Notes: generated by a model not told the origin, from the letters alone. 64,000 bases of DNA from a virus (IMGVR_UViG_3300002835_000070:38229-102228), one strand, 5' to 3'; shown: positions 39,223-62,234, numbered from the stretch's first letter. Numbers and translations: made by a program.

Positions 39223-39525
39223 ATGGCTTTGACAAGAAAACCTAAAGAAACCGTTACGGTAGATGCAAAAGATATTACTTGGATAAAAGATATTCTAAAA
39301 GAATTATCATTAAAAGTAGAAACTATTGATAAAACAACAACCAAGTTAAATACTACAATTGTTGGCGACCCCTCATACGGACAGATAGGTTTGATTACGC
39401 AAGTCAAAGAACATAATGATTACATTGAATCAGACAGAACTTTTAAGTCTAAATTGATTGGTGGAAGTATAGTTTTAGGTGGTCTATGGACAATTCTTTT
39501 AAAATTTTGGGAAAAAATATTTTAA
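39223..39525 (+). CDS. C-anchored coiled-coil protein (100 aa)
   Basis: The N-terminal 25 residues are basic, then a coiled coil (about 20-60, DILKELSLKVETIDKTTTKL) and one transmembrane helix (about 76-94) follow. It lies 13 bp before the first spike gene. Similar short anchored coiled coils commonly dock fibres or act as spanin-like proteins. The evidence is positional. Confidence 0.65.
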   Translation: MALTRKPKETVTVDAKDITWIKDILKELSLKVETIDKTTTKLNTTIVGDPSYGQIGLITQVKEHNDYIESDRTFKSKLIGGSIVLGGLWTILLKFWEKIF

Positions 39526-39537
39526 AAATAATTTAGT

Positions 39538-42500
39538 ATGGCATATCCAAATGGGTCGATACCCGTAACAAGTAGTATAGGCACTACTGCAAGTAGTGAT
39601 ACATTTCCAACGCACATAGATAATCTTGGGGCAGGTGGTCTTATGACTATGCTCACAGTTGCCAATATGAACTCAATACCAACTTTACGAAGAAAGTTTG
39701 GTATGCAAGTTTCAGTAACAAGCGATTCAACTCCCGCAAACAATAAAGTTTACATTTTAGCAAACGTTGCAATGGGTGGAACAGATAATTCTGTTTCAAA
39801 TAACTCAAACTGGATTGATTATAGTTCTTATATTGGTGCTGGTAGTCCTTTTGAGTATGGCACTAATGATGCTATTCAGCCAGTAATAGGTGGGAATGTT
39901 GCGAGTGGTTGTCAATCAACAATTGGAGGAGGTAGTTGCAATACTGCAAGTGGTTGTAAATCAACAGTAAGTGGTGGAAACGAAAATCTTTCTTGTGAAA
40001 TACTTTCTACGGTTGGAGGAGGTACAAGAAACTATGCCAAAGGTAGTTGCTCAACAATAGGAGGTGGTCAAAACAATAGAGCTATTGGACAATGGTCGTT
40101 TATTGGAGGGGGGTATAATAATTGTGCCGTAGGAGGTTACGCAACAACTGTCGGAGGTGTTGGTAATGTAGTACAATCTAGTTTTTCAACAATTATTGGT
40201 GGTAAAAGTAATACAGTTTATGGTGTTTTTTCAATAGTTGGCGGTGGTCTATATAATAAATCTTGTGGGTATTATTCAACAGTCGGAGGAGGTTTTTGTA
40301 ATAAAGCCTATGTTCATTGGTCAACAGTAAGTGGTGGAACTTGTAATATTACAAATTCAAGGTTTTCATTTATTGGAGGTGGTCAAAGAAATATAATTCA
40401 ATCGCCTACAAACGAATGTTGCTCTTTGGGAGTAACAATTGGTGGTGGTATTGGTCATAATACTGCTGGTGGTGTTTTAAATACAACTAATGGAGATTTA
40501 ACTGGTGCAATTACTTGTTGTAATGCTGGAAGATTATCTACAATTAGTGGTGGATTACTAAACTGTGGTACTGGTAATTATTCAACAATTGGTGGTGGTA
40601 AATTTAATACTGCTTCAAGTTGTTATTCAACAATTGGCGGAGGTAATAGCAATGTTTCAAGTGGTACTCATTCTGTAATTAGTGGCGGTTGTTGTAATAC
40701 CTCATCGAGTTTATTTACAACTGTTGGTGGAGGACAAGCTAATACATCATCAGCACGTTGTTCTACTGTTGCAGGGGGTGCTTCTAACATATCTTCTAAT
40801 CGTTGCTCAACTGTTGGTGGAGGAACTTTAAACTTGGCATCAGGTTGTTCTTCAACTATCGCAGGTGGTAGGTTTAATTGCGCCACAAATGATGGTTCAA
40901 CAGTTGGTGGCGGATGTTGTAATTCATCATCTTCTGTTTTTACAACAATTGGTGGTGGTTTTACTAATATTGCTTCTGCTTTTTATTCAACAATTGGCGG
41001 TGGTTATAAAAATTGTAGTTGTTGTAATTTTTCTTTAGTTGGAGGAGGTTTTTGCAATTCTGTTAAAACTGAATTTTCAACAATATCAGGTGGTAAACGT
41101 AATAATACTTGTTTAGGGGAAAATATAACAATTGGTGGCGGTTATTGTAATACTGCTTCTAATTATTATTCAACAATTGGTGGCGGTTATAAGAATCTTG
41201 CTGATGGACTAAATAGTGCTATTTTGGGAGGTTCTACAAACAAAACGTGCGGATATGCCAATGCAATGATAATCGGCTCTAATTTATGTGCAACTCAAGC
41301 GTGTACTACATTTACTAATTGCCTTTCAGCGCAAAATTTATCAGCAGGTTGTGCCGTTGTAGTTGGAGCAAATGGTGTGTTAGTAAATGCACCGACAATT
41401 CCTTACGTTGGCAGTATATTTCAAATAGGGATAGGAACAGGAAGTACAGAGCGTTGTGGTTTATCGAATAATGCTCAAGGTAATTATTCAACTATTAGCG
41501 GTGGTAAATCTAATTGTGCTTTAGGTATATATTCAATAATAGGTGGTGGTTCAATAAACACTACAAATGGTATTAATTCAATTGTAGGTGGGGGGGAAAA
41601 AAATCAAGCTATTTGCGAACATAGTGTAGTTGTAGGTGGATATTGTAATTCATCAACAAACATACACGCAATAGTAGGTGGCGGTGGTTTTAATAATGCA
41701 AGTGGAGTTTATTCAATGATTGGAGGAGGTTGTGCTAATATTGCTTCAGGTAAATATTCAACAATTGGAGGTGGTTATACTAACATTTCTTCTAACAAAA
41801 CAACAACAATAGGCGGTGGTTATCAAAATACTGCTTCAAATTCAGGTGCTACTATTGGTGGTGGTGGAGATAATCTCGCAAGTGGTTTTACTTCAACAAT
41901 TAGTGGTGGCGGTTGTAATACCGCATCTGGTTGTGTTTCATTCATTGGTAGCGGAATTCGTAATACCGCATCTAATTGTTTTTCAATAATTAGTGGTGGA
42001 TTTTGTAATACCGTATCGGCTTGTTATTCGATAATTGGGGGTGGTATATGTAATACTGCATCTGGCAATTGTTCAGCTATTTTAGGGGGGTGTTTAAATA
42101 ACACTTGTACTTTTGATGACGCTATGATAATCGGCTCTAATTTATGTGCAACTCAAGCGTGTACTACATTTATGAACTGCGTATCGGCTAATAATTTAAC
42201 AGTTGGTTGTTTTGTTAGCGTTGGCGCAAATAAAGTACTTGAAAATGCGCCTTTTGTTCCAAATAGCGGTTTATTCGCTCAAACAACAGATAGCACTCCT
42301 GTAACGGCAACTGATGTTGAAAGTTCTTTAATAGGTGTTGGTGTTGGTACATTAAGTGTACCTGCAAATGGATTTTCAGTAGGAGATAGTTTTAATGCGG
42401 TTTTAGACGGTATTATTTCAAATGTCGGAACTGCGACCCTACGTATAAGAATAAAAACACTTTCGGGTGCGCCTTTAGCAGATACGGGAGTTCTTGCTTT

Positions 42501-42774
42501 AGACGCTTCTACTTTAAAATCTTGGACACTAATATTACAATTTACAATTAGAACATTAGGAACAACAGGCGTAGCATCAATTTCGTCAGGTGGTTTGTTT
42601 TCATATATTAAAAATGCGGGAACAAGTTTTGAGGGATTCGTTTTGACACTATTAAATACAACTACTTTTGATACTACAATAAATAATACATTAGTCATTA
42701 CGGCTCAATGGAACACTAACAATGCGGGTAATTCAATGTTTTCGAGAAATTTCGTCTTGAGTAAAGTATATTAA
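39538..42774 (+). CDS. Giant repeat spike 1 (YadA-head-like), two heads and a beta-sandwich tip
   Basis: In this 1,078-residue protein, residues 1-110 form the shared N-terminal base (MAYPNGSIPVTSSIGTTASS). From about 115 to 575 and 640 to 860, 15-residue repeats follow (STIGGG, two variable residues, N, TASG, two variable residues), separated by a neck reading ATQACTTFTNCLSAQNLSAG. The heads resemble YadA beta-rolls and should trimerise. Residues about 905-1078 are a beta-sandwich tip unlike that of the other spikes. Cys is frequent (CCN, SGC). This is probably the receptor-binding spike. Confidence 0.85.
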   Translation: MAYPNGSIPVTSSIGTTASSDTFPTHIDNLGAGGLMTMLTVANMNSIPTLRRKFGMQVSVTSDSTPANNKVYILANVAMGGTDNSVSNNSNWIDYSSYIGAGSPFEYGTNDAIQPVIGGNVASGCQSTIGGGSCNTASGCKSTVSGGNENLSCEILSTVGGGTRNYAKGSCSTIGGGQNNRAIGQWSFIGGGYNNCAVGGYATTVGGVGNVVQSSFSTIIGGKSNTVYGVFSIVGGGLYNKSCGYYSTVGGGFCNKAYVHWSTVSGGTCNITNSRFSFIGGGQRNIIQSPTNECCSLGVTIGGGIGHNTAGGVLNTTNGDLTGAITCCNAGRLSTISGGLLNCGTGNYSTIGGGKFNTASSCYSTIGGGNSNVSSGTHSVISGGCCNTSSSLFTTVGGGQANTSSARCSTVAGGASNISSNRCSTVGGGTLNLASGCSSTIAGGRFNCATNDGSTVGGGCCNSSSSVFTTIGGGFTNIASAFYSTIGGGYKNCSCCNFSLVGGGFCNSVKTEFSTISGGKRNNTCLGENITIGGGYCNTASNYYSTIGGGYKNLADGLNSAILGGSTNKTCGYANAMIIGSNLCATQACTTFTNCLSAQNLSAGCAVVVGANGVLVNAPTIPYVGSIFQIGIGTGSTERCGLSNNAQGNYSTISGGKSNCALGIYSIIGGGSINTTNGINSIVGGGEKNQAICEHSVVVGGYCNSSTNIHAIVGGGGFNNASGVYSMIGGGCANIASGKYSTIGGGYTNISSNKTTTIGGGYQNTASNSGATIGGGGDNLASGFTSTISGGGCNTASGCVSFIGSGIRNTASNCFSIISGGFCNTVSACYSIIGGGICNTASGNCSAILGGCLNNTCTFDDAMIIGSNLCATQACTTFMNCVSANNLTVGCFVSVGANKVLENAPFVPNSGLFAQTTDSTPVTATDVESSLIGVGVGTLSVPANGFSVGDSFNAVLDGIISNVGTATLRIRIKTLSGAPLADTGVLALDASTLKSWTLILQFTIRTLGTTGVASISSGGLFSYIKNAGTSFEGFVLTLLNTTTFDTTINNTLVITAQWNTNNAGNSMFSRNFVLSKVY
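40626..40943 (+). repeat. About 318-bp block shared by spikes 1 and 2 (copy 1)
   Basis: The block is nearly identical to 44733-45050 and offset by 4,107 bp. Differences are scattered single bases until the boundaries, after which the genes diverge, as expected of gene conversion or recombination between repeat heads. Confidence 0.8.
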
Positions 42775-42793
42775 TATAATTAAAAAAAGCATA

Positions 42794-43750
42794 ATGGCAA
42801 TAAATAAATCACAACCACAGAATATATCATCGCCTAACGGAAATTCATTAGCAGTATTTGTAGATGGTATAACAGGAGTTCTAACACTAAAAGACGTTTA
42901 TGGCGCAACAGAACCTTTACAAAACTATGTAACAGGTGGCGGTGGCGGTGGAAGCAGTGTTTACGCAGGAGATTCGCCAACAACAGTAATAGTTGAAAAT
43001 ATACCAATAGGTACAGATATTACAGGATATACTTATGACGATTTATTTCAAAATATATATGCGCCTTATGTATATCCAACTTTCACTTCGTTTGGAATTA
43101 CACAAACTACTCCTATTGAAGTGGGAACAACAATTAGTGGTGCTAAATCATTTAGTTGGGCGTTTACAACTCCGTCTAATTTACAAGCAAATAGCGTTTC
43201 TGTAATTGACGTTACAGACGGAAATACAGTCTTGCAATCAGGTATAAGCAATACAAGCCCTCAAAATGTAAATATTGGGTCGGTTCAAAAAATAGTTTCT
43301 TCAATTAATGAATGGAAAGCAACTGCAATTGACACAAAATCAAATGTAATTACAAGTACATTTGCAACTGTTATATGGTATTGGAAATTATATTATGGCG
43401 TTAGTGCTAATCCAACATTAAACGAGGCTCAAATAGAGGCTTTGACAGGGGTTTTAAAAGCAAATCAAATAGGAGATTATACTTTTTCTACATTAAATTA
43501 TAAATACATTTGTTATCCTGATACTACGCCTTTTTCAAGTCCAACAACTGCAACAGGTTTTAAAGATACTGCTACGAATTTAGTGGTAGCAATGGCTGAT
43601 GCGACAGACGATGCTTTTTATAGCAATGTTGAAAATGGGTGGTCTTATGGTACTGTAAGTGTTACTAATGCTCAAGGAGTTACAGTAGATTATAGAGTTT
43701 ACAGAACTAAATATGAATTAGGTGCAGAAATAACAATTAGAGTTTCCTAA
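42794..43750 (+). CDS. Short fibre-like protein without GGG repeats
   Basis: The 318-residue protein has a hydrophilic base (INKSQPQNISSPNGNSLAVFV), a GGGGGG hinge (about 49-54) and beta-rich domains typical of phage fibres (FTSFGITQTTPIEVGTTISG, FSWAFTTPSNLQANSVSVID). The C-terminal section (about 190-318) has a Trp/Tyr-rich fold. It lies between spike genes with 19 and 17 bp spacing, so it is expressed with them. It may be a receptor-binding or connector fibre. Confidence 0.75.
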   Translation: MAINKSQPQNISSPNGNSLAVFVDGITGVLTLKDVYGATEPLQNYVTGGGGGGSSVYAGDSPTTVIVENIPIGTDITGYTYDDLFQNIYAPYVYPTFTSFGITQTTPIEVGTTISGAKSFSWAFTTPSNLQANSVSVIDVTDGNTVLQSGISNTSPQNVNIGSVQKIVSSINEWKATAIDTKSNVITSTFATVIWYWKLYYGVSANPTLNEAQIEALTGVLKANQIGDYTFSTLNYKYICYPDTTPFSSPTTATGFKDTATNLVVAMADATDDAFYSNVENGWSYGTVSVTNAQGVTVDYRVYRTKYELGAEITIRVS

Positions 43751-43767
43751 TTTAAAAATAATTTAGT

Positions 43768-46326
43768 ATGGCATATCCAAATGGGTCGATACCCGTAACA
43801 AGTAGTATAGGCACTACTGCAAGTAGTGATACATTTCCAACGCACATAGATAATCTTGGGGCAGGTGGTCTTATGACTATGCTTACTGTTGCCAATATGA
43901 ACTCAATACCAACTGCTCGAAGAAAGTTTGGTATGCAGGTTTCAGTTACAAGCGATTCAACTCCTGCAAACAATAAAGTTTATATTTTAGCAAACGTTGC
44001 AATGGGTGGAACAGATAATTCTGTTTCAAATAATGCCAATTGGATTGAATATTCGTCTTTTAATGGCGCAAGTCCTTTTGAACATAATGCTAATGCAACG
44101 GGTATTCAGCCGATAATAGGTGGTAATAATGCGAGTGGTGTTAATTCAACAATTGGGGGTGGTCAACAAAATACCGCTTGTGGTTGCACTTCAACAATTG
44201 GAGGTGGTGCAAATAATGTTTCAGGCAAATTAAGTACATATTTTCAAACTTGCAACACTAATTACGCACGGTTTTGTACTAATTCAGGATATGTTAACGG
44301 AAATGTTAATTTTATAGCACCAAACTTTAGTTATTTTTGTTTTATCGGAAATCAAACTACTTATTTTGGAAGCCCCGATATTATAAGTGGTTTATATTTA
44401 AAAAGCGATACTCCTCTTAACTCTTTTAGTTGCTATCAACCTAACACGGGGTTTTCTTTAATAGGCGCATATTACAATCCATCTACGCAGAATACCTGTG
44501 TAGGATTCTCTCCTAACTTATATAGTGAATTTTCAATAAATCAATATCCAGGTTCTTTTATAGGAGGAGGAAATTCAAATTTATCTTGCGGAAAAAATTC
44601 AGTTGTAGTTGGTGGTTTAGAGAATAATGCTTTATGTGCATACTCGACAATTGGGGGTGGTCAATGTAATAATTCAAGTGGTTATTCCTCAACAGTAAGT
44701 GGTGGCGGTAGTAATACCGCTTCGGGTTATATTTCAACAATTGGCGGAGGTAATAGCAATGTTTCAAGTGGTACTCATTCTGTAATTAGTGGGGGTTGTT
44801 GTAATACCTCATCGAGTTTATTTACAACTGTTGGTGGAGGACAAGCTAATACATCATCAGGACGTTGTTCTACTGTTGCAGGAGGTGCTTCTAACATATC
44901 TTCTAATCGTTGCTCAACTGTTGGTGGTGGAACTTTAAACTTGGCATCAGGTTGTTTTACAACTATCGCAGGTGGTAGGCTTAATTGCGCTACAAGCTAT
45001 GGTTCAACAATTGGAGGTGGATGTTGTAATTCATCATCTTGTTATTTTACAACAATTGGCGGTGGTTATTGTAATATTGCTTCGGGTTATGATTCATTTA
45101 TTGGTGGTGGTAGAACAAATACCGCTTCAGCTTGTAAATCAACAATTGGCGGAGGTTGTTGTAATACCGTTTCGTGTTATATTTCAACAATTGGAGGTGG
45201 TTATCGCAATACTGTTTCGGGTAGTATTTCAACAATTGGAGGTGGCGGTAATAATAACGCTTCGGGTCAAGGTTCGACAATTAGTGGTGGTCAATGTAAT
45301 ACCGCTTCGGGTTATTGTTCAACAGTTGGAGGCGGTTCTTGTAATTCATCATCGAGTCTTGCTACAACAATTGGGGGTGGACGTTTTAATATTACTTCTG
45401 CTTGTAATTCAACAGTTGGAGGCGGTTCTTGTAATATTGCTTCGTGTGCTAATTCAACAATTGGTGGTGGTCTTAAAAATACTGCTTCGGGTGCTACTTC
45501 AACAGTTGGCGGTGGTTGTTATAATACCGCTTCGGGTGGTGCTACAACAATTGGGGGTGGACGTTGTAATATTGCTTCTGCTTGTTATTCAACAATTGGG
45601 GGTGGTTGTGTTAATACCGCTTCGTGTGCTAATTCAACAATTGGTGGTGGTAAACTTAATAAAACTTGCAATAGTTATGCAACAATTGGGGGTGGTATTG
45701 AAAATACCGCTTTGGGTGCTACTTCAACGATTGGGGGTGGCTTTCAAAATCTTACTTCTAATAGTATTTCAACAATTGGTGGTGGCTCTCGAAATACCGC
45801 TTCGGGTTTTATGTCAACAATTGGGGGCGGTTGTTGCAATATTACTTCTAATTGTAATTCAACAGTTGGTGGTGGTCTTAAAAATACCGCTTCGGGTTAT
45901 TCCTCGATAATTGGTGGGGGTTGTTATAATACCGCTTTGGGTTGTAGTTCAACAATTGGGGGTGGTTTTCAAAATACAGCTTCGTGCAATAGTTCAACAA
46001 TTGGGGGTGGTTGTCAAAATACAGCTTCGTATTGCCATTCAACAATTGGGGGTGGTTGTCGTAATACCGCTTCGGGTTTTGGAGCTACTATTTCAGGTGG
46101 TTTTAGTAACTGCGCTAATGGTATTAGTTCTTTTATTGCGGGAGGAACTTGTAATAGCACATCTTTTTTTGATTTCGCAATGATTGTAGGTTCTTGTATA
46201 ACCGCAAATAGAGTTTGTACTACATTTGTAAATAATTTATCTATAATGAACATTCCAACATATAGCGCAGGTTTACCAAGTGGTGCTTTGTGGAGTAGTG
46301 GCGGAACAATATGTATTGTACCGTAA
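43768..46326 (+). CDS. Giant repeat spike 2 (YadA-head-like)
   Basis: In this 852-residue protein the N-terminal base is almost identical to that of spike 1, and the duplication includes the leader AAAAATAATTTAGT. A short unique domain (about 153-255) breaks the first repeats. A long head of 15-residue repeats follows, then a C-terminal IVGSCITANRVCTTFVNN... LPSGALW module shared with spikes 3 and 4. A block at 44733-45050 is nearly identical to 40626-40943 in spike 1. Cys is common in the variable positions. Confidence 0.85.
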   Translation: MAYPNGSIPVTSSIGTTASSDTFPTHIDNLGAGGLMTMLTVANMNSIPTARRKFGMQVSVTSDSTPANNKVYILANVAMGGTDNSVSNNANWIEYSSFNGASPFEHNANATGIQPIIGGNNASGVNSTIGGGQQNTACGCTSTIGGGANNVSGKLSTYFQTCNTNYARFCTNSGYVNGNVNFIAPNFSYFCFIGNQTTYFGSPDIISGLYLKSDTPLNSFSCYQPNTGFSLIGAYYNPSTQNTCVGFSPNLYSEFSINQYPGSFIGGGNSNLSCGKNSVVVGGLENNALCAYSTIGGGQCNNSSGYSSTVSGGGSNTASGYISTIGGGNSNVSSGTHSVISGGCCNTSSSLFTTVGGGQANTSSGRCSTVAGGASNISSNRCSTVGGGTLNLASGCFTTIAGGRLNCATSYGSTIGGGCCNSSSCYFTTIGGGYCNIASGYDSFIGGGRTNTASACKSTIGGGCCNTVSCYISTIGGGYRNTVSGSISTIGGGGNNNASGQGSTISGGQCNTASGYCSTVGGGSCNSSSSLATTIGGGRFNITSACNSTVGGGSCNIASCANSTIGGGLKNTASGATSTVGGGCYNTASGGATTIGGGRCNIASACYSTIGGGCVNTASCANSTIGGGKLNKTCNSYATIGGGIENTALGATSTIGGGFQNLTSNSISTIGGGSRNTASGFMSTIGGGCCNITSNCNSTVGGGLKNTASGYSSIIGGGCYNTALGCSSTIGGGFQNTASCNSSTIGGGCQNTASYCHSTIGGGCRNTASGFGATISGGFSNCANGISSFIAGGTCNSTSFFDFAMIVGSCITANRVCTTFVNNLSIMNIPTYSAGLPSGALWSSGGTICIVP
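44733..45050 (+). repeat. About 318-bp block shared by spikes 1 and 2 (copy 2)
   Basis: This is the second copy of the block at 40626-40943. Together with the shared bases (39525-39780, 43755-44010, 46332-46590), it gives several tracts for homologous recombination. Confidence 0.8.
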
Positions 46327-46344
46327 TAAAAAAAATAATATAGT

Positions 46345-49300
46345 ATGGCATATCCAAATGGGTCAATACCCGTAACAAGTAACATAGGCACTACGGCAAG
46401 TAGTGACACATTTCCAACGCACATAGATAATCTTGGGGCAGGTGGTCTTATGACTATGCTTACGGTTGCCAATATGAACTCGATACCAACTGCTCGAAGA
46501 AAGTTTGGTATGCAGGTTTCGGTAACAAGCGACACAACTCCCGCAAACAATAAAGTTTACATTTTAGCAAACGTTGCAATGGGTGGAACAGATAATTCTG
46601 TTTCAAATAATGCGAATTGGATTGAATACTCTTCTTTCAATGGTGCAAGTCCTTTTGAATATAATGCTAATGCAACAGGCATTCAGCCAATATTAGGCAG
46701 TAATAATGCGAGTGGTTGTTTAGCTACTATTGGTGGTGGTTGTTATAATATTGCAAGTGGAACACATTCTTTTATTGGTTCAGGCTTTTGTAACAAGGCA
46801 ACTTTAGATAAATCTATTGTTGTTGGGGGATATAAAAATTGTGCATCAGGTTGTTATTCTTTTATTGGGGGTGGTTATTATAATTCTTCAAGTGGTAAAT
46901 ACGCTACAATTGGTGGGGGTTCATATAATGAAACTGCTTATAGTTATACAACTGTAAGTGGTGGAAAATATAACAGTTCAATTAGTAAGGGTGCTACCGT
47001 TAGTGGCGGTATATTAAATAATTCAAACAATCAATATGCTTTTGTAGGTGGAGGTAAAAAAAATCTTTCTTCTGGTCAATTTGCTACTATTGGCGGTGGT
47101 TGTTGTAATAAAGCGTGTGTTAATGGTTCAACAGTTGGTGGTGGAATAAAAAACACATCTTGCAATAATTTTTCAACAGTTAGTGGTGGTTGTTGTAATA
47201 CTGCGAATGGTTGTTACTCTTTTATAGGTGGTGGTGCTTGTAATCTTGCATCAAGTACTGAAAAAGGATTTCAGGGATTTTCAACAATTGGTGGTGGTAG
47301 GAGTAATACCGCTTGTGGGAATTATTCTTTTATTGGCGGTGGTAAATTAAATTGTGCTTTAGGCGAATATTCAATAATAGTTGGTGGTTTTAATAACTCA
47401 ACTACTTGCCCTCTTTCAACAATCGGTGGTGGTCGTTGCAATATTACGTCTGCTATAAATTCAACTATTAGTGGTGGTTGTAGTAATAGTACTTCGGGTT
47501 TTTATTCAACAATTGGCGGTGGTTGTACTAACATTGCTTCTGCTTCAAAGGCAACAGTTAGTGGCGGTGGTAATAATACTGCATCTGCTTGTTATTCATT
47601 TGTAGGTGGCGGTGCTTACAATACTGCTATTTCTACGAATTCAACTATTGGTGGCGGTGGTAGTAATAATGCGTGTGGGGAATTTTCATCAATTGGCGGT
47701 GGTGTTGAAAACGCTACATTTGCACCAAATGCTACAATTGGTGGTGGTAGGAATAATCAAGCCTGTGGTAATGCTTCAACTATTTCAGGTGGTTGGTGTA
47801 ATAGTACTTGTTATAGTTTTTCAACAGTAGGTGGTGGTAAACAGAATAGTGCTTCTTATGATTATGCAACAGTAGGAGGCGGTTATTGTAATACTGCTTC
47901 AAATTATTATTCAACAATTGGCGGAGGAATTAGTAATACTTCAAGTGATTATAATTCAACAGTTGGTGGTGGTATTTGTAATACCGCTTCGGGTTCTGAT
48001 TCATTTATTGGTGGTGGTAGAACAAATACCGCTTCGGGTTGTTCCTCGATAATTGGTGGTGGTTTACAAAATACTGCTTCTAATAAATACACAACAGTTA
48101 GTGGTGGTCAATGTAATACTGTTTCTTCAATTAATGGCATAATTGGGGGAGGTTGTTATAATAAAATAAACGCATCTCAAAACTATAATAATAGTTATCC
48201 TTTTATTGGAGATGTAATTAATGGCGGTAGTCGTAATGAAATTAAACAAAATACTTATTGTGCTTTTTCTTCTACTGGTGGAAATGTAATTGGAGGGGGT
48301 TATAATAATATAGTATGTGCTTATAGAGAGTCAAATACTATTGGTGGTGGTAAAATTAATACAACTCGTGGGGATTTTTCAACAATAAGCGGAGGAAATA
48401 GCAATAAGGCTTATTGTAGTGGCTCAACAATAGGTGGCGGTTCTTTTAATAAAGCGTATAATTATCACGCTACTGTTTCTGGAGGTGTTGCAAATACTGC
48501 TTGTGGTTGTTATTCAACTATTGGTGGTGGTAGATGTAATATAATTACTTCTGGTCGTTATACATTTATTGGAGGAGGTCAAAAAAATTCGCTAACCGCT
48601 ATTTATTCAACAATTGTAGGGGGTTATTATAATACTGCTTCTGGTTATTCTTCTTTTGTAGGTGGCGGTAGTAAAAATACATCAAGTAATAATTATACAA
48701 CAGTAGGTGGCGGTAGATATAACGTTTCAAGTAGTTATTATGCTACTATTGGAGGTGGTTGTTGCAATACTGCTTCGGGCAATAGTTCTTTTATAGGTGG
48801 GGGTATATTTAATGTTAGTTGTGGTGCTGTTTCTTTTGTAGGTGGCGGACAACGTAATGTAAATTATGGTCTTTTTTCAACAATTTCTGGGGGTTATTAT
48901 AACTGTATTCAAGGAGGATGTAATTCTACAATTGGTGGCGGTAGTAAAAATTGCATAAAGGGTAAGAGTGGAGTAATTGGCGGAGGTTATAATAATTATA
49001 TTACTGATAGAAGTGATTATTCCTCTATTATTGGTGGCAGAAATAATAATACCAACGATTATAGTGATGTTCATATAATAGGTTGTAATATTACTGCAAA
49101 TCAAAATAACACTACATTTACAAATTGCATTTCTGCTTGTAACTTAACCGCAGGTTGTTTTGTATCAGTAGGTGCAAACGGTGTATTAATAGATAATGCA
49201 GGTATTCCTTATGCGGGTTGCTTAATAATTCAAGGTTTAGGTACGGGTAGTACAATGCGTTGTGGTTTGTCAAATATTGCAACAGGCAATTATGCAACTC

Positions 49301-50700
49301 TTTTTGGCACAGGTAATGTTGCAAGTGGAGAGAAATCAACAGTAGGTGGTGGAGAATGTAATACTGCTTCGGACTATCATTCAACAATTGGTGGTGGATT
49401 TTGTAATACCGCTTCGGGCTTTTTGTCAACAATTGGGGGCGGAAAATGTAATACTGCTTATGCTTGTTATTCATTTGTAGGGGGCGGATATTGTAACGTT
49501 ACAAGTGGATATAGAGGCAATACAATTGGAGGGGGTCGTGAAAATATTTCTACTTCGTATAATTCAACAGTTGGTGGCGGTTTTCAAAATACTGCTTCTG
49601 CGTATTATTCAACAATTAGCGGTGGTAAAAATAATTTCTCAAGTGGTTGTTGTTCATTTGTTGGTGGTGGTTATAGTAATGTTGCTTCTGCCTTTCATTC
49701 AACAATAGGGGGTGGTTATGAAAATATTAGTTCTGGGCAGTATGCAACAATTGGGGGTGGTGCTAATAATGTTGCAAACAATCTTGTTTCTTTCGTAGGA
49801 GGTGGTACGGGTAATCTTGCTTACGGACAAAAATCAACAATTGGTGGAGGAGAGACAAATGTTGCTTGTGGCGATTATTCAAGTGTAATTGGTGGAAGTG
49901 GAAATGTTGCCTGTGGTCTTTATTCAACAGTTGGAGGTGGACACGGAAATTGTGCAATTGGTCGAGGGTCAACAGTTAGTGGTGGTTCTTCTTATTCAGC
50001 TTATAATAATAAAGCGTATGGAAGTTTCTCAACAATAGGTGGTGGATATTATAATTGGATTAATGGTATTGATGCTTGTGGTTATGCTTCGACAATAAGT
50101 GGTGGTAATTGCAATACTATAAATAATAGAGAAGGAACAATTGGGGGTGGTAGGCACAATACAGTAAGTGCTAATTTATCAACAGTTAGTGGTGGTCAAT
50201 ATAATACTGCTTCTGGTGGTTGGTCAACAGTAAGTGGTGGTAAGTGTAATAGTGCAAGTGGGTGTTATTCATTTATTGGTGGTGGTTATAGCAATACTGC
50301 TACTGTGCAATACTCAACAGTTGGTGGAGGACTTAGTAATATTGCTTGTGGTTCTTATGGAGTAATTAGTGGTGGTTTAGCAAATATTAATGGTGGTAGT
50401 TTTTCAATGATTGGTGGCGGAAATGCTAATAAAATTGTACAAAATAACAGTGCTTCGTTTATTGGCGGTGGTACTTGCAATAATGTACAATCAGTAGCTT
50501 GTTTTTCAGCTATTTTAGGTGGTAATAATAATAATGCACAATCCGCATATTCAATGATTGTAGGAACTAATATCACTACGAATAGAGTTTGCACTACATT
50601 TGTAAATAACTTATCTATAATGAATATTCCAACAAGTAGTGCTGGTTTACCGAGTGGCTCTGTTTGGAGAAGAGAAAGTTCATTGTGTATAGTGCCTTAA
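46345..50700 (+). CDS. Giant repeat spike 3 (YadA-head-like), the largest
   Basis: The 1,451-residue protein has the shared base (MAYPNGSIPVTSNIGTTASS) and at least two long heads. The first, about 118-910, ends in the IIGCNITANQNNTTFTNCI neck; the second runs to about 1405. A small segment near 610-670 with ASQNYNNSYPFIGDVINGG interrupts the repeats. The C-terminal IVGTNITTNRVCTTFVNN module closes it. Each head should form a stacked beta-roll trimer. Length and internal repeats make it the likely longest projection of the virion. Confidence 0.85.
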   Translation: MAYPNGSIPVTSNIGTTASSDTFPTHIDNLGAGGLMTMLTVANMNSIPTARRKFGMQVSVTSDTTPANNKVYILANVAMGGTDNSVSNNANWIEYSSFNGASPFEYNANATGIQPILGSNNASGCLATIGGGCYNIASGTHSFIGSGFCNKATLDKSIVVGGYKNCASGCYSFIGGGYYNSSSGKYATIGGGSYNETAYSYTTVSGGKYNSSISKGATVSGGILNNSNNQYAFVGGGKKNLSSGQFATIGGGCCNKACVNGSTVGGGIKNTSCNNFSTVSGGCCNTANGCYSFIGGGACNLASSTEKGFQGFSTIGGGRSNTACGNYSFIGGGKLNCALGEYSIIVGGFNNSTTCPLSTIGGGRCNITSAINSTISGGCSNSTSGFYSTIGGGCTNIASASKATVSGGGNNTASACYSFVGGGAYNTAISTNSTIGGGGSNNACGEFSSIGGGVENATFAPNATIGGGRNNQACGNASTISGGWCNSTCYSFSTVGGGKQNSASYDYATVGGGYCNTASNYYSTIGGGISNTSSDYNSTVGGGICNTASGSDSFIGGGRTNTASGCSSIIGGGLQNTASNKYTTVSGGQCNTVSSINGIIGGGCYNKINASQNYNNSYPFIGDVINGGSRNEIKQNTYCAFSSTGGNVIGGGYNNIVCAYRESNTIGGGKINTTRGDFSTISGGNSNKAYCSGSTIGGGSFNKAYNYHATVSGGVANTACGCYSTIGGGRCNIITSGRYTFIGGGQKNSLTAIYSTIVGGYYNTASGYSSFVGGGSKNTSSNNYTTVGGGRYNVSSSYYATIGGGCCNTASGNSSFIGGGIFNVSCGAVSFVGGGQRNVNYGLFSTISGGYYNCIQGGCNSTIGGGSKNCIKGKSGVIGGGYNNYITDRSDYSSIIGGRNNNTNDYSDVHIIGCNITANQNNTTFTNCISACNLTAGCFVSVGANGVLIDNAGIPYAGCLIIQGLGTGSTMRCGLSNIATGNYATLFGTGNVASGEKSTVGGGECNTASDYHSTIGGGFCNTASGFLSTIGGGKCNTAYACYSFVGGGYCNVTSGYRGNTIGGGRENISTSYNSTVGGGFQNTASAYYSTISGGKNNFSSGCCSFVGGGYSNVASAFHSTIGGGYENISSGQYATIGGGANNVANNLVSFVGGGTGNLAYGQKSTIGGGETNVACGDYSSVIGGSGNVACGLYSTVGGGHGNCAIGRGSTVSGGSSYSAYNNKAYGSFSTIGGGYYNWINGIDACGYASTISGGNCNTINNREGTIGGGRHNTVSANLSTVSGGQYNTASGGWSTVSGGKCNSASGCYSFIGGGYSNTATVQYSTVGGGLSNIACGSYGVISGGLANINGGSFSMIGGGNANKIVQNNSASFIGGGTCNNVQSVACFSAILGGNNNNAQSAYSMIVGTNITTNRVCTTFVNNLSIMNIPTSSAGLPSGSVWRRESSLCIVP

Positions 50701-50722
50701 TAAAAATAAAAAAAATAAAAAT

Positions 50723-50983
50723 ATGTATAAATTTGAAATAGTTGTTGGAAGTTTACAAATATCACTTAATGGATTAATTATATTAGTTGTTCCAAAAGAT
50801 TCTTGTGCAATAGATGTTTTGGCGTTATCTAAATCAACTCCTTACATATCTATTTTTAATAAATTTTTGGCTAACTTTACAACCATTTTCAGCCAACCGT
50901 TGTCAAGTTGCATAAACGCAACTAATACGCCTTTTACCGAAAGTAGCTTTATTGCTTTCGCAGAGGTTAATTTAGGGGTTTAA
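50723..50983 (+). CDS. Stand-alone spike base module (86 aa)
   Basis: It encodes only the base seen at the N-terminus of spike 4: KFEIVVGSLQISLNGLIILV here versus KLVIVDGSLQISINGSIILV there, then PKDSCAIDVLAL and IFSQPLSSC. It is a tandem duplicate without a head. It may act as an assembly adaptor or be a decapitated relic, though its frame is intact and conserved. Confidence 0.75.
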   Translation: MYKFEIVVGSLQISLNGLIILVVPKDSCAIDVLALSKSTPYISIFNKFLANFTTIFSQPLSSCINATNTPFTESSFIAFAEVNLGV

Positions 50984-50995
50984 AAAAATATAGTT

Positions 50996-52606
50996 ATGAT
51001 AAAATTAGTAATAGTAGATGGAAGTTTACAAATAAGCATTAATGGTTCAATTATATTAGTAGCACCGAAAAATTCGTGTGCTATTGATGTATTATCTTTA
51101 TACGATGCGATACCTTTAATTGTAATTTACAATAAGTATTTAGGTAATTTCACGAGTATTTTTAGTCAACCTTTGTCTGAATGTACGGACGGTACAGGAA
51201 CTCCTTTTGACGTAAACACATTTATTGATTTTGCGGAAGCAAATCTTGGGTTTGATACATCAGGTGGTGGTGGCGGTGGTTGTAGTCCTTTCAAATATAA
51301 CACTAATGGAACAGGTATAGAACCTTGCTTGGGTAGTAACTATGCGAGTGGGGATTTATCCACTATTGGCGGTGGTTCTACAAATACTGCGAGTGGTATT
51401 CACTCAACAATTGGTGGTGGGGATTGCATAACCGCTGATGGCGACCATTCTTTTGTAGGCGGTGGTTTATGTAATACGGCAACAGGTGGATGTTCGACAA
51501 TTGGTGGTGGAATTAGTAATACCGCTTCGGGTAATAATTCAACCGTTAGTGGTGGGAAATGTAACACTTCTTCTTGTGATTTAGCAAATATCAGTGGTGG
51601 TATTTCAAACACTTCCTCTGGTTACGCTTCAGTAATTGGTGGCGGTACAGGAAATGCTTCTTCTACTGTTAATTCAACAGTAGGTGGTGGAGGTAGTAAT
51701 TCGGCTTCAGGTAGTGCTTCAACAGTTAGTGGTGGTTGTGCGAATTTCGCTACTGCTTATAAAACAACTGTTGGTGGTGGTGGTAGTAACTATGCAACTT
51801 CTGACTTGGCTACCATTGGTGGTGGAAGCCAAAATAATGCGGTTGGTTATTGGGCGACAATTTCAGGCGGTAAAGGACAATGGGCTTGTAATAGTGCTTT
51901 TGTAGGAGGTGGTAGATACAATTGTGCTAATGGTTGTAATTCTGTTGTAGTTGGTGGTGGTGGTACATATCCATCGGAGGGTAATATTGCAAGTGGAAAT
52001 ACATCAACAATTAGTGGCGGTAGAGCCAATGCTTCCATAGGAGGCTTTTCAACAATTGGCGGTGGTATTTTTAATAGTGCTTCTGCTAAATATTCAACAG
52101 TTGCAGGGGGTTATAATAATACTGCTTCTGGTTATTCTTCTTTTGTAGGTGGCGGTAATCTTAATACTGCTTCGGGTTTTTATTCAATAATTGGCAGTGG
52201 TAGGAGAAATACTTCTTCTGGTGATTTTTCTACAATCGGAGGAGGTTGTTACAATACTGCTTCTGGCAATAAGTCTTTTATAGGCGGGGGTTATAAAAAT
52301 TGTGTTTCTAATTATGAATATTCATCAATTGTTGGTGGCAAGAGAAATAATACTTATAGTGCTTATTCTTTTATAGGTAATGGTTATCAAAATAAAGTTA
52401 ACGCTGATTTTTCAGCTATATTAGGTGGTAAAAACAATGTTGCTAATTACGCTTGTTCGATGATTGTAGGAGATAATATTACTACAAATAGAATTTGTAC
52501 TACATTTGTAAACAACTTATCTATAATGAATATTCCAACAACTAATCTTGGATTACCGAGTAATTCTGTTTATAAAATAGGTAATCAATTATTTATAGTG
52601 CCTTAA
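50996..52606 (+). CDS. Repeat spike 4 (YadA-head-like) with a distinct base
   Basis: The 536-residue protein has a base (1-85) that differs from spikes 1-3 and matches the adjacent 86-residue protein. A GGGGGG hinge (about 91-96) is followed by one head of 15-residue repeats (about 105-480), and the C-terminal IVGDNITTNRICTTFVNN module shared with spikes 2 and 3. It shows exchange of bases on the same head type. Confidence 0.85.
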   Translation: MIKLVIVDGSLQISINGSIILVAPKNSCAIDVLSLYDAIPLIVIYNKYLGNFTSIFSQPLSECTDGTGTPFDVNTFIDFAEANLGFDTSGGGGGGCSPFKYNTNGTGIEPCLGSNYASGDLSTIGGGSTNTASGIHSTIGGGDCITADGDHSFVGGGLCNTATGGCSTIGGGISNTASGNNSTVSGGKCNTSSCDLANISGGISNTSSGYASVIGGGTGNASSTVNSTVGGGGSNSASGSASTVSGGCANFATAYKTTVGGGGSNYATSDLATIGGGSQNNAVGYWATISGGKGQWACNSAFVGGGRYNCANGCNSVVVGGGGTYPSEGNIASGNTSTISGGRANASIGGFSTIGGGIFNSASAKYSTVAGGYNNTASGYSSFVGGGNLNTASGFYSIIGSGRRNTSSGDFSTIGGGCYNTASGNKSFIGGGYKNCVSNYEYSSIVGGKRNNTYSAYSFIGNGYQNKVNADFSAILGGKNNVANYACSMIVGDNITTNRICTTFVNNLSIMNIPTTNLGLPSNSVYKIGNQLFIVP

Positions 52607-52702: not shown

Positions 52703-53041
52703 ATGGAAAATTTCACAATTCACATCTTCGGTTACGGAGAAACACAGATTAATTCAAAAGATTTATCAGTAAAAGTAAAAACTGATACTCTTACTACTGT
52801 AACGCCATTAGTGGCAGGTATATTCGCTAAAAAACCTGCGGACAACCCAACTTTGATTACAGATTTTCACGCAATAAACCTTTTTGGCTACAAAGACGTT
52901 CGTTGGATGGCAAAAGACGGTTTTAATGTAAAAGACGATGAGGATTTAAAACCTCTTATTGACGCTTTAATTGCTGAATTGCAAACCGCAAAAGACAACG
53001 AACCTGCACCTGCTCCAAAAGTAGCTAAAGCAACAACATAA
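52703..53041 (+). CDS. Small soluble protein with Ala/Pro/Lys tail (112 aa)
   Basis: A compact alpha/beta domain (about 1-95; FTIHIFGYGETQINSKDL, DFHAINLFGYKDVRWMA) is followed by a PAPAPKVAKA tail. It has its own -7 element. It may be a phage-type early or virion accessory protein. No clear function is seen. Confidence 0.7.
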   Translation: MENFTIHIFGYGETQINSKDLSVKVKTDTLTTVTPLVAGIFAKKPADNPTLITDFHAINLFGYKDVRWMAKDGFNVKDDEDLKPLIDALIAELQTAKDNEPAPAPKVAKATT

Positions 53042-53057
53042 AAAAATAGTCGTTATG

Positions 53058-53095
53058 CTCGGTAACTCCTCTTTGTTAATTCAAATGAAACCGAG
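53058..53095 (+). promoter_or_regulatory. Inverted repeat in the sulfotransferase leader
   Basis: CTCGGT (53058-53063) and ACCGAG (53090-53095) could pair around a 26-base loop in the leader between 53041 and the ATG at 53133. No U-run follows, so it is not a normal terminator; it could be an operator or leader structure. Confidence 0.25.
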
Positions 53096-53132
53096 TGAAA
53101 GACTAAATTAAGAAACTAATATAACAACAAGT

Positions 53133-53951
53133 ATGAAAAAGATTTTTTTCAATTCCTCGCTCCCACGTTCGGGGTCAACTTTGATTTCTAATTTGATTGC
53201 TCAAAACCCTGAATTTTATGCAACGCCTACTTCGGGTCTTTCAGATTTAGTTTTGAGTGCTAAAAACTCTTACGCACATTCCCAAGCAATTTTGTCGCAA
53301 GACAAGGAAGCAATGGAAAAAGCATTTTTAGGATTTTGCCGTGCAGGTATGCAAGGCTTTTTCAATAACCTTACCCCAAAAGAATTTATCGTTGATAAAA
53401 GCAGAGATTGGGGTATTCACTACAACTTATTGAATTTACTATATCCTGAACCAAAGATAATTTGTATGGTTAGAGATGTTCGAGCCGTATATGCTTCTAT
53501 GGAAAAGAACTTTAGGAAAAATCCGCATAAAGAAAGTCATATCCAAAATGCACCACAATTAATTGGAACTACATTAGACAAGAGAATTAATATATGGGCT
53601 GACGGAGTACCTGTTGGTATTGCGTTAGACCGTTTGAAAGATGTTATCCAACAAGGTTTAGATAAAAAAATATTATTTATTCGCTATGAAGACTTAATGG
53701 CGAACCCTGAAAACGAAATGAAGCGTTTGTATGAGTATTTAGGACAACCTTACTACGACAAACACGATTTTGAAAACATTACCCAACATACTCACGAAAA
53801 CGATGCTATTCACGGTATCTATGGCGACCATCAGTTAAGACCTAAATTCGAGAGATTACCTGACGATTTTTACGATGTTTTAGGTTACGAACTTTGCCAA
53901 TCCATAAAAAACACTTATGCTTGGTTCTACAAATATTTTGCGTACCTATAA
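53133..53951 (+). CDS. Sulfotransferase
   Basis: The 272-residue protein begins KIFFNSSLPRSGSTL, the 5'-phosphosulfate-binding loop (PRSGST at 11-16). ICMVRDVRAVYASM (Arg114, Ser122) matches the 3'-phosphate-binding motif of PAPS-dependent sulfotransferases. The enzyme would transfer sulfate from PAPS to a carbohydrate, protein or lipid. Adenylylsulfate kinase, which makes PAPS, is encoded just downstream. No membrane segment is seen. The acceptor is unknown. Confidence 0.85.
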   Translation: MKKIFFNSSLPRSGSTLISNLIAQNPEFYATPTSGLSDLVLSAKNSYAHSQAILSQDKEAMEKAFLGFCRAGMQGFFNNLTPKEFIVDKSRDWGIHYNLLNLLYPEPKIICMVRDVRAVYASMEKNFRKNPHKESHIQNAPQLIGTTLDKRINIWADGVPVGIALDRLKDVIQQGLDKKILFIRYEDLMANPENEMKRLYEYLGQPYYDKHDFENITQHTHENDAIHGIYGDHQLRPKFERLPDDFYDVLGYELCQSIKNTYAWFYKYFAYL

Positions 53952-53963
53952 AATAATCGAAGT

Positions 53964-54107
53964 ATGTATGTAGAAAATATTTTAAGTTACAGTTTTAAAG
54001 AATTTAATTGTAGCTTTTATCCCTGCGTTGTAAATATGTTTATTCCAAAGGGTAGTATAGCATTAGTTCAAGTAAATAGTAAAAAATCAAAAACAATAGA
54101 GGTATGA
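53964..54107 (+). CDS. Small protein overlapping the adenylylsulfate kinase gene (47 aa)
   Basis: It begins MYVENILSYSFKEFNCSFYP and is mostly beta/aromatic, with an IPKGSIALVQVNS segment. Its stop overlaps the next ATG as ATGA, so it is probably translated with the kinase. Function is unknown. The position between sulfotransferase and kinase hints at an auxiliary role. Confidence 0.6.
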   Translation: MYVENILSYSFKEFNCSFYPCVVNMFIPKGSIALVQVNSKKSKTIEV

Positions 54108-54559
54108 TATTCTGGTTCACGGGGCAACCCCACGCAGGAAAAACAACATTAGCTAAACACTTAAAAAAAGCCTTAATGTTAAATAATCCTTTAAGAGAAG
54201 TTCATTTAGTTGACGGAGATGATTTGAGAAGAATTATCAACAATAAAGACTATTCAGAACAAGGACGTAGAAATAATATTAGTCAAGCAATAGCAATCGC
54301 TAAATATTTAGACGACAACTCAAAAAATGACGTTGTAGTGTCTTTAGTTTCTCCGTATAAAGATTTAAGAGATGAATTGAAGTCAAGTACCGATGTAATT
54401 GAAATTTACGTTCATACGACAGATATTAGAGGTAGAGAAGCGTTTCACGTTGCGGACTACCAAGCACCAACAGAATCATTCATTGATATTGACACAACAG
54501 GTGTTGATGTATTGGTTTCGGTAAATGAGTTGTTAAATAAAATCAAAAACTTTTCATAA
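54104..54559 (+). CDS. cysC: Adenylylsulfate (APS) kinase
   Basis: The 151-residue protein has a Walker A motif GQPHAGKTT (7-15), DGDDLRR (38-43) followed by SEQGRRNNI, the SPYKDLRD segment (83-90), and YQAPTESF (119-126). This motif order matches APS kinases, which phosphorylate adenylylsulfate to PAPS. It is slightly shorter than typical bacterial CysC. Neighbouring sulfotransferase and DUF2061 genes make the assignment strong. It would supply the sulfate donor in infected cells. Confidence 0.85.
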   Translation: MIFWFTGQPHAGKTTLAKHLKKALMLNNPLREVHLVDGDDLRRIINNKDYSEQGRRNNISQAIAIAKYLDDNSKNDVVVSLVSPYKDLRDELKSSTDVIEIYVHTTDIRGREAFHVADYQAPTESFIDIDTTGVDVLVSVNELLNKIKNFS

Positions 54560-54870
54560 TGAAAAAAGAAAAAAAAGTAGTCAATACTAAAGATGCAATC
54601 CAAAGATTCATTTTAGAGGGGCGTGAGGTAATTCTTAAAAAAGAAAACGAAACTTCATTTGTCCGCATCAGGTTTAATAACGAAGATACAGACGGTACTC
54701 AAAAGTGGCGTGTATTAATCAATGGAAACGAACTTCGTACAAGCGAAGTAATCATAAACTGCCAAGTAAGAACTCTTACCGAAGAGTTTCAAGAAATAGG
54801 TATAAAACACCATATTGTTTGCGATGCCAAAGAAATCATATTTAAAAATAATATAGCAACTGTAAATTAA
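54559..54870 (+). CDS. Small soluble protein coupled to APS kinase (103 aa)
   Basis: TAATG overlaps the kinase stop. The product is beta-rich: KDAIQRFILEGREVILKKEN, SFVRIRFNNEDTDGTQ, KWRVLINGNEL, then VIINCQVRT. There is no membrane helix or named motif. Tight coupling suggests a partner of the sulfation pathway; this is not shown by sequence. Confidence 0.65.
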   Translation: MKKEKKVVNTKDAIQRFILEGREVILKKENETSFVRIRFNNEDTDGTQKWRVLINGNELRTSEVIINCQVRTLTEEFQEIGIKHHIVCDAKEIIFKNNIATVN

Positions 54871-54877
54871 TAAGAAA

Positions 54878-55843
54878 TTGGCAGTTAAAAGAGATATTTC
54901 AGGGCAAAAATTCGGTAAGTTATTTGTTTTAAATTACGTTGAAACGATTAATAAATTGAGTAGATATTTATGTCAATGCGATTGTGGGAATCAAAAAGTT
55001 TTAATTAGAAAACTTTTGGTAAGAGGGGATACAAAAAGTTGTGGTTGTGATTGGATACAATCTAATTCTAAACATCATTCTTGGAAAGGCTACGAAGACT
55101 TACCTTTAGATTTTTTTACAAGTATAAAAAGAGGTGCAAAATCAAGAAATATAGAATTTGATATAAAAATTGAGGACATTTGGGATTTATTGATTCGTCA
55201 AGATAGAAAATGTGCGCTTTCGGGATTAGATTTGAAGTTTTCTCAAATAAGAAAAAACAGAACGTTACAAACAACTTGCTCTTTAGATAGAATAGATAGT
55301 TCTATGGGATATGTAAATGGTAATGTTCAATGGGTTCATAAGAAAATAAATATAATGAAGAATAAACTATTAGACAAAGATTTTATATATTTCTGCGTTA
55401 TGGTTTCTAATAAAAATAAAAAAAGAATTATTATGGAAAATAATGAATGGAAAGAGTTTATTCACGTTGAATCCTCTTTAAAAAGAAAAAAAAATCAATT
55501 TGCTATGTTTTGCGGTAGGTTTCAACCTTTACACGAAAGTCATATAGCATTATTTAAAAGGGCGTTAGAAAATAAAAAAAATGTTCTTATATGTATTAGA
55601 GATGGGGAGATAAATGAAAAAAATCCGTTTACCGCTGAAGAAGTTTTAAAAAAAATATCCGAGTATTACAAAAATCTCATCAAAAAGGGCAAAGTTAAAG
55701 TTATGATAATCCCTGATATTTGTTCAGTAGAATTTGGACGTGGCGTTGGATATGATATTATTGAGCATATACCACCTACTGAAGTAGCGGAAATTTCTGC
55801 TACTAAAATTAGAGAGCAAATGCGTAAAGACGGTACGCTATGA
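54878..55843 (+). CDS. HNH endonuclease fused in frame to a HIGH-type nucleotidyltransferase
   Basis: A TTG start begins a 321-residue ORF. Residues 1-185 are a homing endonuclease: zinc-like CQCDCGN and SCGC, then CALSGLDL, CSLDRIDSSMGYVNGNVQW and the NIMKN helix. Met186 (ATG 55433, ideal AAGAATTATTATGG context) opens a complete adenylyl/cytidylyltransferase domain: MFCGRFQPLHESHIALFKRA with HxxH-type His219/His222, and ISATKIR at 306-312. The second half probably also has its own start. The endonuclease seems to have inserted just upstream and lost its own stop. The nucleotidyltransferase's substrate is unclear (NMN-, CTP- or ATP-sulfurylase-like). Confidence 0.8.
   Translation: MAVKRDISGQKFGKLFVLNYVETINKLSRYLCQCDCGNQKVLIRKLLVRGDTKSCGCDWIQSNSKHHSWKGYEDLPLDFFTSIKRGAKSRNIEFDIKIEDIWDLLIRQDRKCALSGLDLKFSQIRKNRTLQTTCSLDRIDSSMGYVNGNVQWVHKKINIMKNKLLDKDFIYFCVMVSNKNKKRIIMENNEWKEFIHVESSLKRKKNQFAMFCGRFQPLHESHIALFKRALENKKNVLICIRDGEINEKNPFTAEEVLKKISEYYKNLIKKGKVKVMIIPDICSVEFGRGVGYDIIEHIPPTEVAEISATKIREQMRKDGTL
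55433..55843 (+). other. Probable internal translation start giving the nucleotidyltransferase alone
   Basis: The ATG at 55433-55435, in frame with the longer ORF, is preceded by an A-rich leader equal in quality to the starts of independent genes here. It would give a 136-residue nucleotidyltransferase that begins shortly before the GRFQPLHESH motif. This would be the original gene, with the endonuclease inserted before it. Confidence 0.55.
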
Positions 55844-56193: not shown

Positions 56194-56194
56194 A

Positions 56195-56539: not shown

Positions 56540-56542
56540 ATT

Positions 56543-61355: not shown

Positions 61356-62234
61356 TCATTCATTATCGCTTACAGAAGTAACTTTGATGTCAGAGTTCAA
61401 ATTTAATTCATTATTTTCACTTGACAATGGATTTTCTTGAAAATTTGTTAAGTTTTGATAAATACTGTTTCTTTTCTTACCTATAATCGTGCCTTGAACT
61501 ACTCTAACGGTATCATTTTCGTCCATTACTAAATAACCCCCGCCCTCTACATTGTCGTCAAAAGAAACGGCTTTTAGCAACCTATCGTCTTCTTTTGGCA
61601 TAAGTTTCGACATTTGCTTTAGAACTACTTTTTTAAGCATCCATTTTTCAGGGTCTTTTTTGTCATTGAAGTAATAGTCGTTTGGCGTTTCAAGCATATC
61701 CACGATTGTTTTTATTTCCTCAAGGCTCATAACCTTGAAAACAATATCGTCTTCTATTTTGGCGCAGGTATAGATACATTTGATATTATCACAAGTCTTT
61801 ACCGAATTGAAGTTAGGTATGTGAACCATTTTTGGCTCTAAACCAAGTTCGTACTCAAAATCATCTTCGTTGTAAACAACTTCAGCCCAAATCTTTTTAA
61901 CCTTGTTAGAACGAAGCAAAAGCGCAACCAAACCTTTGTAACCTAAAATTGGTTTTACGCTCTCTTTTGATACGGTAAAGAAGAACTCGCCCACTAAACT
62001 TGACGGGGATAGATTTAATTCGGCACAATATAGTGCAGAGGCAAAGAATGAGTTGGGATTTTTTAAGAACACTTCCTGTAACTTTGGGGAACGTTCTAAT
62101 TCATTCACTAACATTTGTTTGAACTTTTGTGGGGAAGTGTTTGTTCCCGATAGCAGGTCTGTTAGATTTTTCTTTTCGTACTTCTCGATTGAAGTATTGA
62201 AATTTGTAAGTACTCTTGTGCTTAATGTCGTCAT
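61356..62234 (-). CDS. recT: RecT-family single-strand annealing protein
   Basis: The 292-residue protein has features of RecT: helical N-terminus with NELERSPKLQEVFLKNP, then SALYCAELNLSPSSLVGEFFF, the ILGYKGLVALLLRSNKVKKI block, and KKDPEKWMLKKVVLKQMSKLMPK. It anneals complementary strands during recombination-driven replication. TAATG overlap couples it to the upstream gene at 62234. No paired RecE-type exonuclease is evident in this window, though a DEDD exonuclease is at the operon start. Confidence 0.85.
   Translation of the reverse strand: MTTLSTRVLTNFNTSIEKYEKKNLTDLLSGTNTSPQKFKQMLVNELERSPKLQEVFLKNPNSFFASALYCAELNLSPSSLVGEFFFTVSKESVKPILGYKGLVALLLRSNKVKKIWAEVVYNEDDFEYELGLEPKMVHIPNFNSVKTCDNIKCIYTCAKIEDDIVFKVMSLEEIKTIVDMLETPNDYYFNDKKDPEKWMLKKVVLKQMSKLMPKEDDRLLKAVSFDDNVEGGGYLVMDENDTVRVVQGTIIGKKRNSIYQNLTNFQENPLSSENNELNLNSDIKVTSVSDNE

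Follow-up and report, generated by a model that had tools for sequence, protein, structure and literature searches.

A probable spike-cassette island with exchangeable modules in an uncultured, AT-rich bacterial virus

The region from 39538 to 52606 is, as a whole and with a good degree of confidence, best explained as an island of spike cassettes carried by an uncultured bacterial virus with AT-rich DNA. The window, meaning the whole 64-kb stretch of DNA that was analysed, is the last part of a 102,228-base virus record (G000:C1:38229-102228). In the mechanism we propose, each large gene would encode a receptor-binding spike that starts with an N-terminal base, the presumed docking piece; several different spikes would be encoded together, and their diversity would build up over evolutionary time through homologous recombination, both among viruses and among paralogs. 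As judged from sequence comparison, the spikes are modular: modules within the same pair of genes differ in age, entire cassettes are replaced between fixed borders in related viruses, one relative carries a swapped base, and a tip is held in common with tailed phages. Exchange of modules probably helps these viruses to change what they bind, with a putative effect on host range.

Gene layout, the 15-residue repeat and its fold

The original prediction placed four giant spike genes in this locus, and all four open reading frames were recovered (S1 to S4; Table 1), although two further members, the fifth cassette and a stand-alone base gene, had been overlooked. All spike genes of the locus have the same orientation. 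S1 contains a second copy of its neck at residues 862-915, 70% identical to the first. Farther downstream, at 54878-55843, a single open frame fuses an HNH-endonuclease-like part to a nucleotidyltransferase-like part; its homolog in the related contig L050 (14575-14979) is without the HNH-endonuclease-like part.

Table 1. Features of the spike locus and its surroundings, in window coordinates
Feature	Position	Strand	Description
Upstream border gene	39223..39525	+	conserved, 100 aa, C-terminal membrane helix; DNA alignments of relatives end at its end
Spike S1	39538..42774	+	1078 aa: base A, beta-roll, neck, beta-roll, neck, tip
Base A of S1	39538..39867	+	residues 1-110; same type in S2 and S3
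Shaft tract of S1	40605..41004	+	91.25% identical to 44712-45111 in S2
Neck 1 of S1	41263..41433	+	residues 576-632
Tip of S1	42253..42771	+	residues 906-1078: predicted beta-sandwich, TNF-like-lectin-like model
Fifth cassette	42794..43750	+	318 aa: base type I_N and a non-repeat domain
Spike S2	43768..46326	+	852 aa: base A, beta-roll, shared C-terminal module
Shaft tract of S2	44712..45111	+	matches 40605-41004 in S1
Spike S3	46345..50700	+	1451 aa: base A, beta-roll, neck, beta-roll, shared C-terminal module
C-terminal module of S3	50512..50697	+	residues 1390-1451; nearer to S4 than to S2
Stand-alone base-B gene	50723..50983	+	86 aa
Spike S4	50996..52606	+	536 aa: base B, beta-roll, shared C-terminal module
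Conserved gene downstream of spikes	52703..53041	+	112 aa
Sulfotransferase	53133..53951	+	PF13469; travels with giant spikes
APS kinase	54104..54559	+	PF01583; downstream border region
RecT-family annealase	61356..62234	-	candidate recombination driver

The spikes comprise 162 counted units of 15 residues (35 in S1, 38 in S2, 70 in S3 and 19 in S4), and the repeat motif occurred 165 times, whereas 200 shuffles of the proteins gave 4.7 on average and never more than 11. These counts bear out the proposed form S-T-I-G-G-G-x-x-N-T-A-S-G-x-x, with column frequencies of S 76%, T 70%, I 67% or V 33%, and G 73% and 98% at the first two glycines, followed after the asparagine by T 38%, A 55%, S 55% and G 48%; the third glycine and the asparagine were fixed by the search pattern and hence carry no measured frequency. 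The distance from one motif to the next was exactly 15 for most intervals (in S2, for example, 32 of 43, and in S3 56 of 80). The repeat had also been called a Gly/Cys repeat, of which only the glycine part holds, since cysteine occupies the variable positions 7, 8, 10 and 12-15. Cysteine makes up 4.7% of spike residues, about sevenfold the 0.7% of the remaining window proteins, and other spikes of the virus family contain about 0.2-1.1 cysteines per unit; no stacking signal was seen, with 16 same-position cysteines on adjacent rungs against 17.4 expected.

In a phmmer search of the PDB, the head of Moraxella UspA1 (3PR7) was matched by S4 (E 3.6e-30) and by S2 (E 3.2e-26) after bias correction. 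UspA1 is an exception among adhesin heads of the left-handed parallel beta-roll type, having layers of mostly 15 residues and an extra conserved glycine (PMC9543794). Because of this match and these layers, the predicted beta-roll, a repeat of the trimeric type, is supported by sequence. An ice-binding beta-roll (3ult) matched at E 6e-4 only, far more weakly than UspA1, and was set aside. By their homology to UspA1 the spikes are probably homotrimers. A rung of a beta-roll adds about 0.48 nm, at which rate the spikes would measure roughly 9-34 nm. Their ends consist of a tip or a C-terminal module, with no Pfam match to a YadA-type C-terminal membrane anchor; no hydrophobic N-terminal stretch of the kind found in signal peptides occurs in S1-S3, and S4 has weakly hydrophobic stretches within base B. 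Lacking the anchor and, in S1-S3, a hydrophobic N-terminus, the spikes were ruled out as type Vc trimeric autotransporters.

Modular construction and exchange of the spikes

It had been predicted that spikes 1-3 share a base, that spikes 2-4 share a C-terminal module and that spike 4 has another base, and all three assignments stood: base A is 86-92% identical over about 410 bp of DNA (S1/S2 89%, S2/S3 92%, S1/S3 86%), the C-terminal modules of S3 and S4 are 81% identical in DNA, and base B is unrelated to base A. A "nearly identical" tract at 40626/44733 is present too, but its true extent and its lower identity are those of the shaft tracts in Table 1. The modules of one pair of genes have diverged to different degrees. 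Between S2 and S3, synonymous divergence (dS) is 0.29 in the base and 1.11 in the C-terminal module; between S3 and S4 it is 0.39 in the C-terminal module, although the bases are unrelated; and between S1 and S2 it is 0.24 in the base and 0.13, the minimum for the locus, in a 133-residue shaft tract, while the ends are unrelated. The low value of this last tract could alternatively come from a recent duplication or from constraint on the DNA. This discordance, together with new combinations of modules in relatives, supports the claim that bases, heads, necks and tips have been recombined.

The S1 tip had been described as unique; it is absent from S2-S4, but widespread in other viruses, occurring in 53 viral contigs behind many different and unrelated N-termini. 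One carrier is the tailed Flavobacterium phage elemoA (57% identity), where the tip lies in a tail-region gene cluster, and another tip-carrying contig has a large terminase nearby (E 2.1e-59, PHROG). The model of the tip (pLDDT 89) found its best Foldseek matches among trimeric TNF-like lectins (probability 1.00, E about 1e-3, TM 0.42-0.54), foremost PLTL (9ib9) and the N-domain of BC2L-C (2wq4), although sequence identity to these is at most 14%. The modelled tip thus weakly resembles TNF-like lectins, a lead for predicted sugar binding.

Relatives were gathered through a putative packaging ATPase (17451-18275), which yielded 36 contigs; a peptide-pattern search for relatives of S4 found none. 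Among cultured phages, no match was obtained for this ATPase, the C-terminal module, base I_N or base B. The spike locus is syntenic in the relatives, bounded upstream by the 100-aa border gene and downstream by the 112-aa gene and the sulfotransferase. When related genomes were compared, as the original prediction had suggested, the whole cassette was found replaced between aligned flanks. The cores of G026 and G033 are 79.9% identical in DNA, and alignment ceases beyond the border gene; G002 and G006 share 82% identity as far as the border and 83% once the APS kinase is reached; the intervening stretches do not align, one encoding two spikes (199 and 1525 aa) and the other just one protein, of 182 aa. 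G016 and G031 display the same pattern.

The relatives also contain modules in new combinations. The locus of L081 encodes a beta-roll spike with an I_N base and an S1-type tip, a second I_N spike, a stand-alone base and a base-B spike, whereas that of L050 encodes an SGNH-like protein, two I_N-base proteins, one of which is a homolog of the fifth cassette, a base-A spike and a base-B spike. L082 has a beta-roll spike whose end is of another kind, C1q-like by eye with no Pfam match; collagen repeats (PF01391, E 7.5e-59) are combined with a beta-roll in L087, and L088 has collagen-like repeats. In L085 and L126 the base is joined straight onto the tip. Thus one base is seen with different ends, and one end with different bases, in the window and its relatives, which is the architecture of modular receptor-binding proteins, with a shared N-terminal base and exchangeable C-terminal ends.

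The fifth cassette represents a third base type and lacks the repeat; its homolog in L050 is 72% identical and one in a megaphage 34%. Base A, the fifth cassette and the S1 tip all have remote counterparts within a fibre-like gene cluster of that megaphage (LR756502; L152, 5631-16308). Base B is kept as a separate gene ahead of base-B spikes in five lineages (the window, L081, L095, L126 and L149/L155). In a tree of base-B sequences, the base of a 289-aa spike of L050 fell inside the clade of stand-alone bases with support of 99/99, apart from the bases of spikes. On this placement the base of the L050 spike is derived from the stand-alone gene, and a deletion between two tandem base copies would yield exactly such an arrangement.

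Plain tandem duplication and divergence of a single spike gene, with modules never exchanged, would account for the tandem order and similar bases of S1-S3 and for the two tandem base-B spikes of L149/L155. It is nonetheless disfavoured and appears improbable, given the discordant dS of base and C-terminal module within the same pairs, the base swap in L050, the S1 tip on many unrelated bases and the replacement of contents between aligned flanks. It is also quite unlikely that the proteins are adhesins or other surface proteins that the infected cell displays or secretes; UspA1 itself is a bacterial adhesin, but the absence of an autotransporter anchor, the lack of a hydrophobic N-terminus in S1-S3, the place of the tip in the elemoA tail region and the distant relationship of base A and the fifth cassette to the megaphage fibre-like cluster all argue against this reading.

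The original prediction went on to propose a built-in system for switching host range, and this part was not supported. In such a system, modules would be actively rearranged within the population at designed sites, through programmed gene conversion, phase variation or a diversity-generating retroelement, and the repeated bases and shaft tracts of 86-92% DNA identity, including the low-dS tract of S1 and S2, could serve as conversion tracks. Diversity-generating retroelements and phage invertases are known built-in means of varying receptor-binding proteins, but the reverse transcriptase or recombinase that they require was not found here; in searches whose controls worked, RVT_1 was absent from 18 family records, including G000, and Phage_integrase (PF00589) and Resolvase (PF00239) were absent from the 18-20 family records searched. 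The common orientation of the genes and the constancy of the spikes across samples likewise make active rearrangement very unlikely. One related virus is represented by three contigs of different sample origin, which are 99.98-100% identical over 13.8-15.4 kb that include all its spikes; shorter contigs agree with this. Two further contigs of the window's virus are 100% identical in the overlap, S1 and the fifth cassette included. The original prediction had named in advance, as what would refute it, spike sequences that are fixed in all related isolates; the spikes proved to be fixed within a virus, but replaced between related viruses. At the present sampling this fixity speaks against rapid switching, although it says little about rate because the samples are possibly linked in place or time.

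Since no dedicated system was found and a RecT annealase is encoded, ordinary homologous recombination is the most likely driver of module exchange. The conserved flanks, the bases and the DNA repeats would provide the sites, and the virus's own annealase (E 1.5e-24) would plausibly assist. Phage annealases of the RecT class promote recombination between divergent sequences (PMC3945230), and RecT was present in 13 of the 24 family records, a set that includes many fragments; we infer from this its role in spike exchange.

The order of S2-S4 comes from one assembly, and two other contigs of the window's virus stop in or near the repeated base (the end of L048 at window position 43715, both ends of L049 at 39555/43849), so that loci of this type are probably broken up in databases. 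That the four-spike array is itself partly a chimera made by repeats is extremely improbable, as S1, the fifth cassette and the first part of S2 are 100% identical in these broken contigs and comparable arrays occur in separate assemblies of other family members.

The virus family and its sulfation genes

The 112-aa gene and the sulfotransferase were present in all ten giant-spike loci resolved on both sides (the window, L050, L081, L083-L087, L126 and L155), and both were missing at the two loci without giant spikes (G006 and G016), the latter of which also lacks the APS kinase there. In L116, a tip carrier without the family's capsid candidate, beta-roll spikes lie beside a 56% identical sulfotransferase. 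We hypothesise that the sulfotransferase may modify the spikes. The comparison of these genes drew on window 52703-57418, L153 and L154; an APS kinase and a nucleotidyltransferase are located nearby.

No Terminase_6N (PF03237) match was found in G000 and 16 relatives, which is a weak test given that PF03237 also missed most other records searched, among them most tip carriers, one of which is terminase-positive by PHROG. The putative packaging ATPase gave HerA/AAA matches below the cutoff and one weak terminase-like PHROG match. A very conserved 231-aa protein (21005-21700) with a jelly-roll-like model and weak matches is the capsid candidate; no relative of it was found in bacterial genome contigs that would link the family to a host. 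Diverged paralogs of it occur in L010 (6650-7174, 14648-15112 and 17225-18418), one of them with two tandem copies. Together with the HerA-like ATPase, the capsid candidate and its paralogs point to a possible large family of tailless viruses without a cultured member. By simple hydropathy, a membrane helix was predicted in 32 of 63 open reading frames at 7400-39600, near one end, and in this stretch dozens of small membrane proteins stand in tandem; a large tailless membrane virus is possible. PHROG "baseplate hub" matches were rejected as tail parts, being wall-degrading domains of 9681-10301 and 19367-19894. In L011 (8973-13738), a Gln/Gly-repeat protein lies beside a MoxR-like AAA ATPase (PHROG "porphyrin biosynthesis", E 9.3e-14), with a possible VWA-like partner recognised by eye.

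A broader reading, which we put forward tentatively and consider doubtful in its entirety, is that of a widespread, uncultured family of tailless, membrane-bearing viruses of roughly 100-120 kb, which would infect bacteria, draw on a pool of tips, shafts and bases shared with tailed phages and carry sulfation enzymes (the sulfotransferase and the APS kinase) in the giant-spike cassette, perhaps for modifying the spikes. This family, possibly tailless, may matter more than the spikes themselves.

Comparison with known systems

Receptor-binding modules appear to be traded as interchangeable parts, both inside this uncultured family and with tailed phages. Should the family prove tailless, components for recognising a host would pass between the most deeply separated groups of bacterial DNA viruses. 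The cassette is syntenic between its fixed borders and occurs both with and without giant spikes and the linked sulfotransferase, which makes it a natural experiment on the purpose of very long spikes.

The spikes resemble the UspA1 head in their 15-residue period and Gly-rich turn as well as in direct sequence match, but they are virus-encoded, Cys-rich and up to 70 counted rungs long, and neither a coiled-coil stalk nor a membrane anchor was found in them. Receptor-binding proteins with YadA-like and C1q-like ends are known from variable metaviromic islands (PMC3909814), which have in common with the present locus a conserved N-terminal base, variable ends and hypervariability; those are tail fibres of marine tailed phages, whereas here a multi-gene array of giant beta-rolls occurs in a family without a detected terminase. 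Host-recognition modules are likewise common to unrelated phages in the case of Alteromonas A5 and V22 (PMC10579305), where distant viruses share a whole fibre and its chaperone; here single domains are shared, such as the S1 tip on its many unrelated bases. Modularity of this kind is already known, and the locus is an unusually large and clear case of modular receptor-binding proteins.
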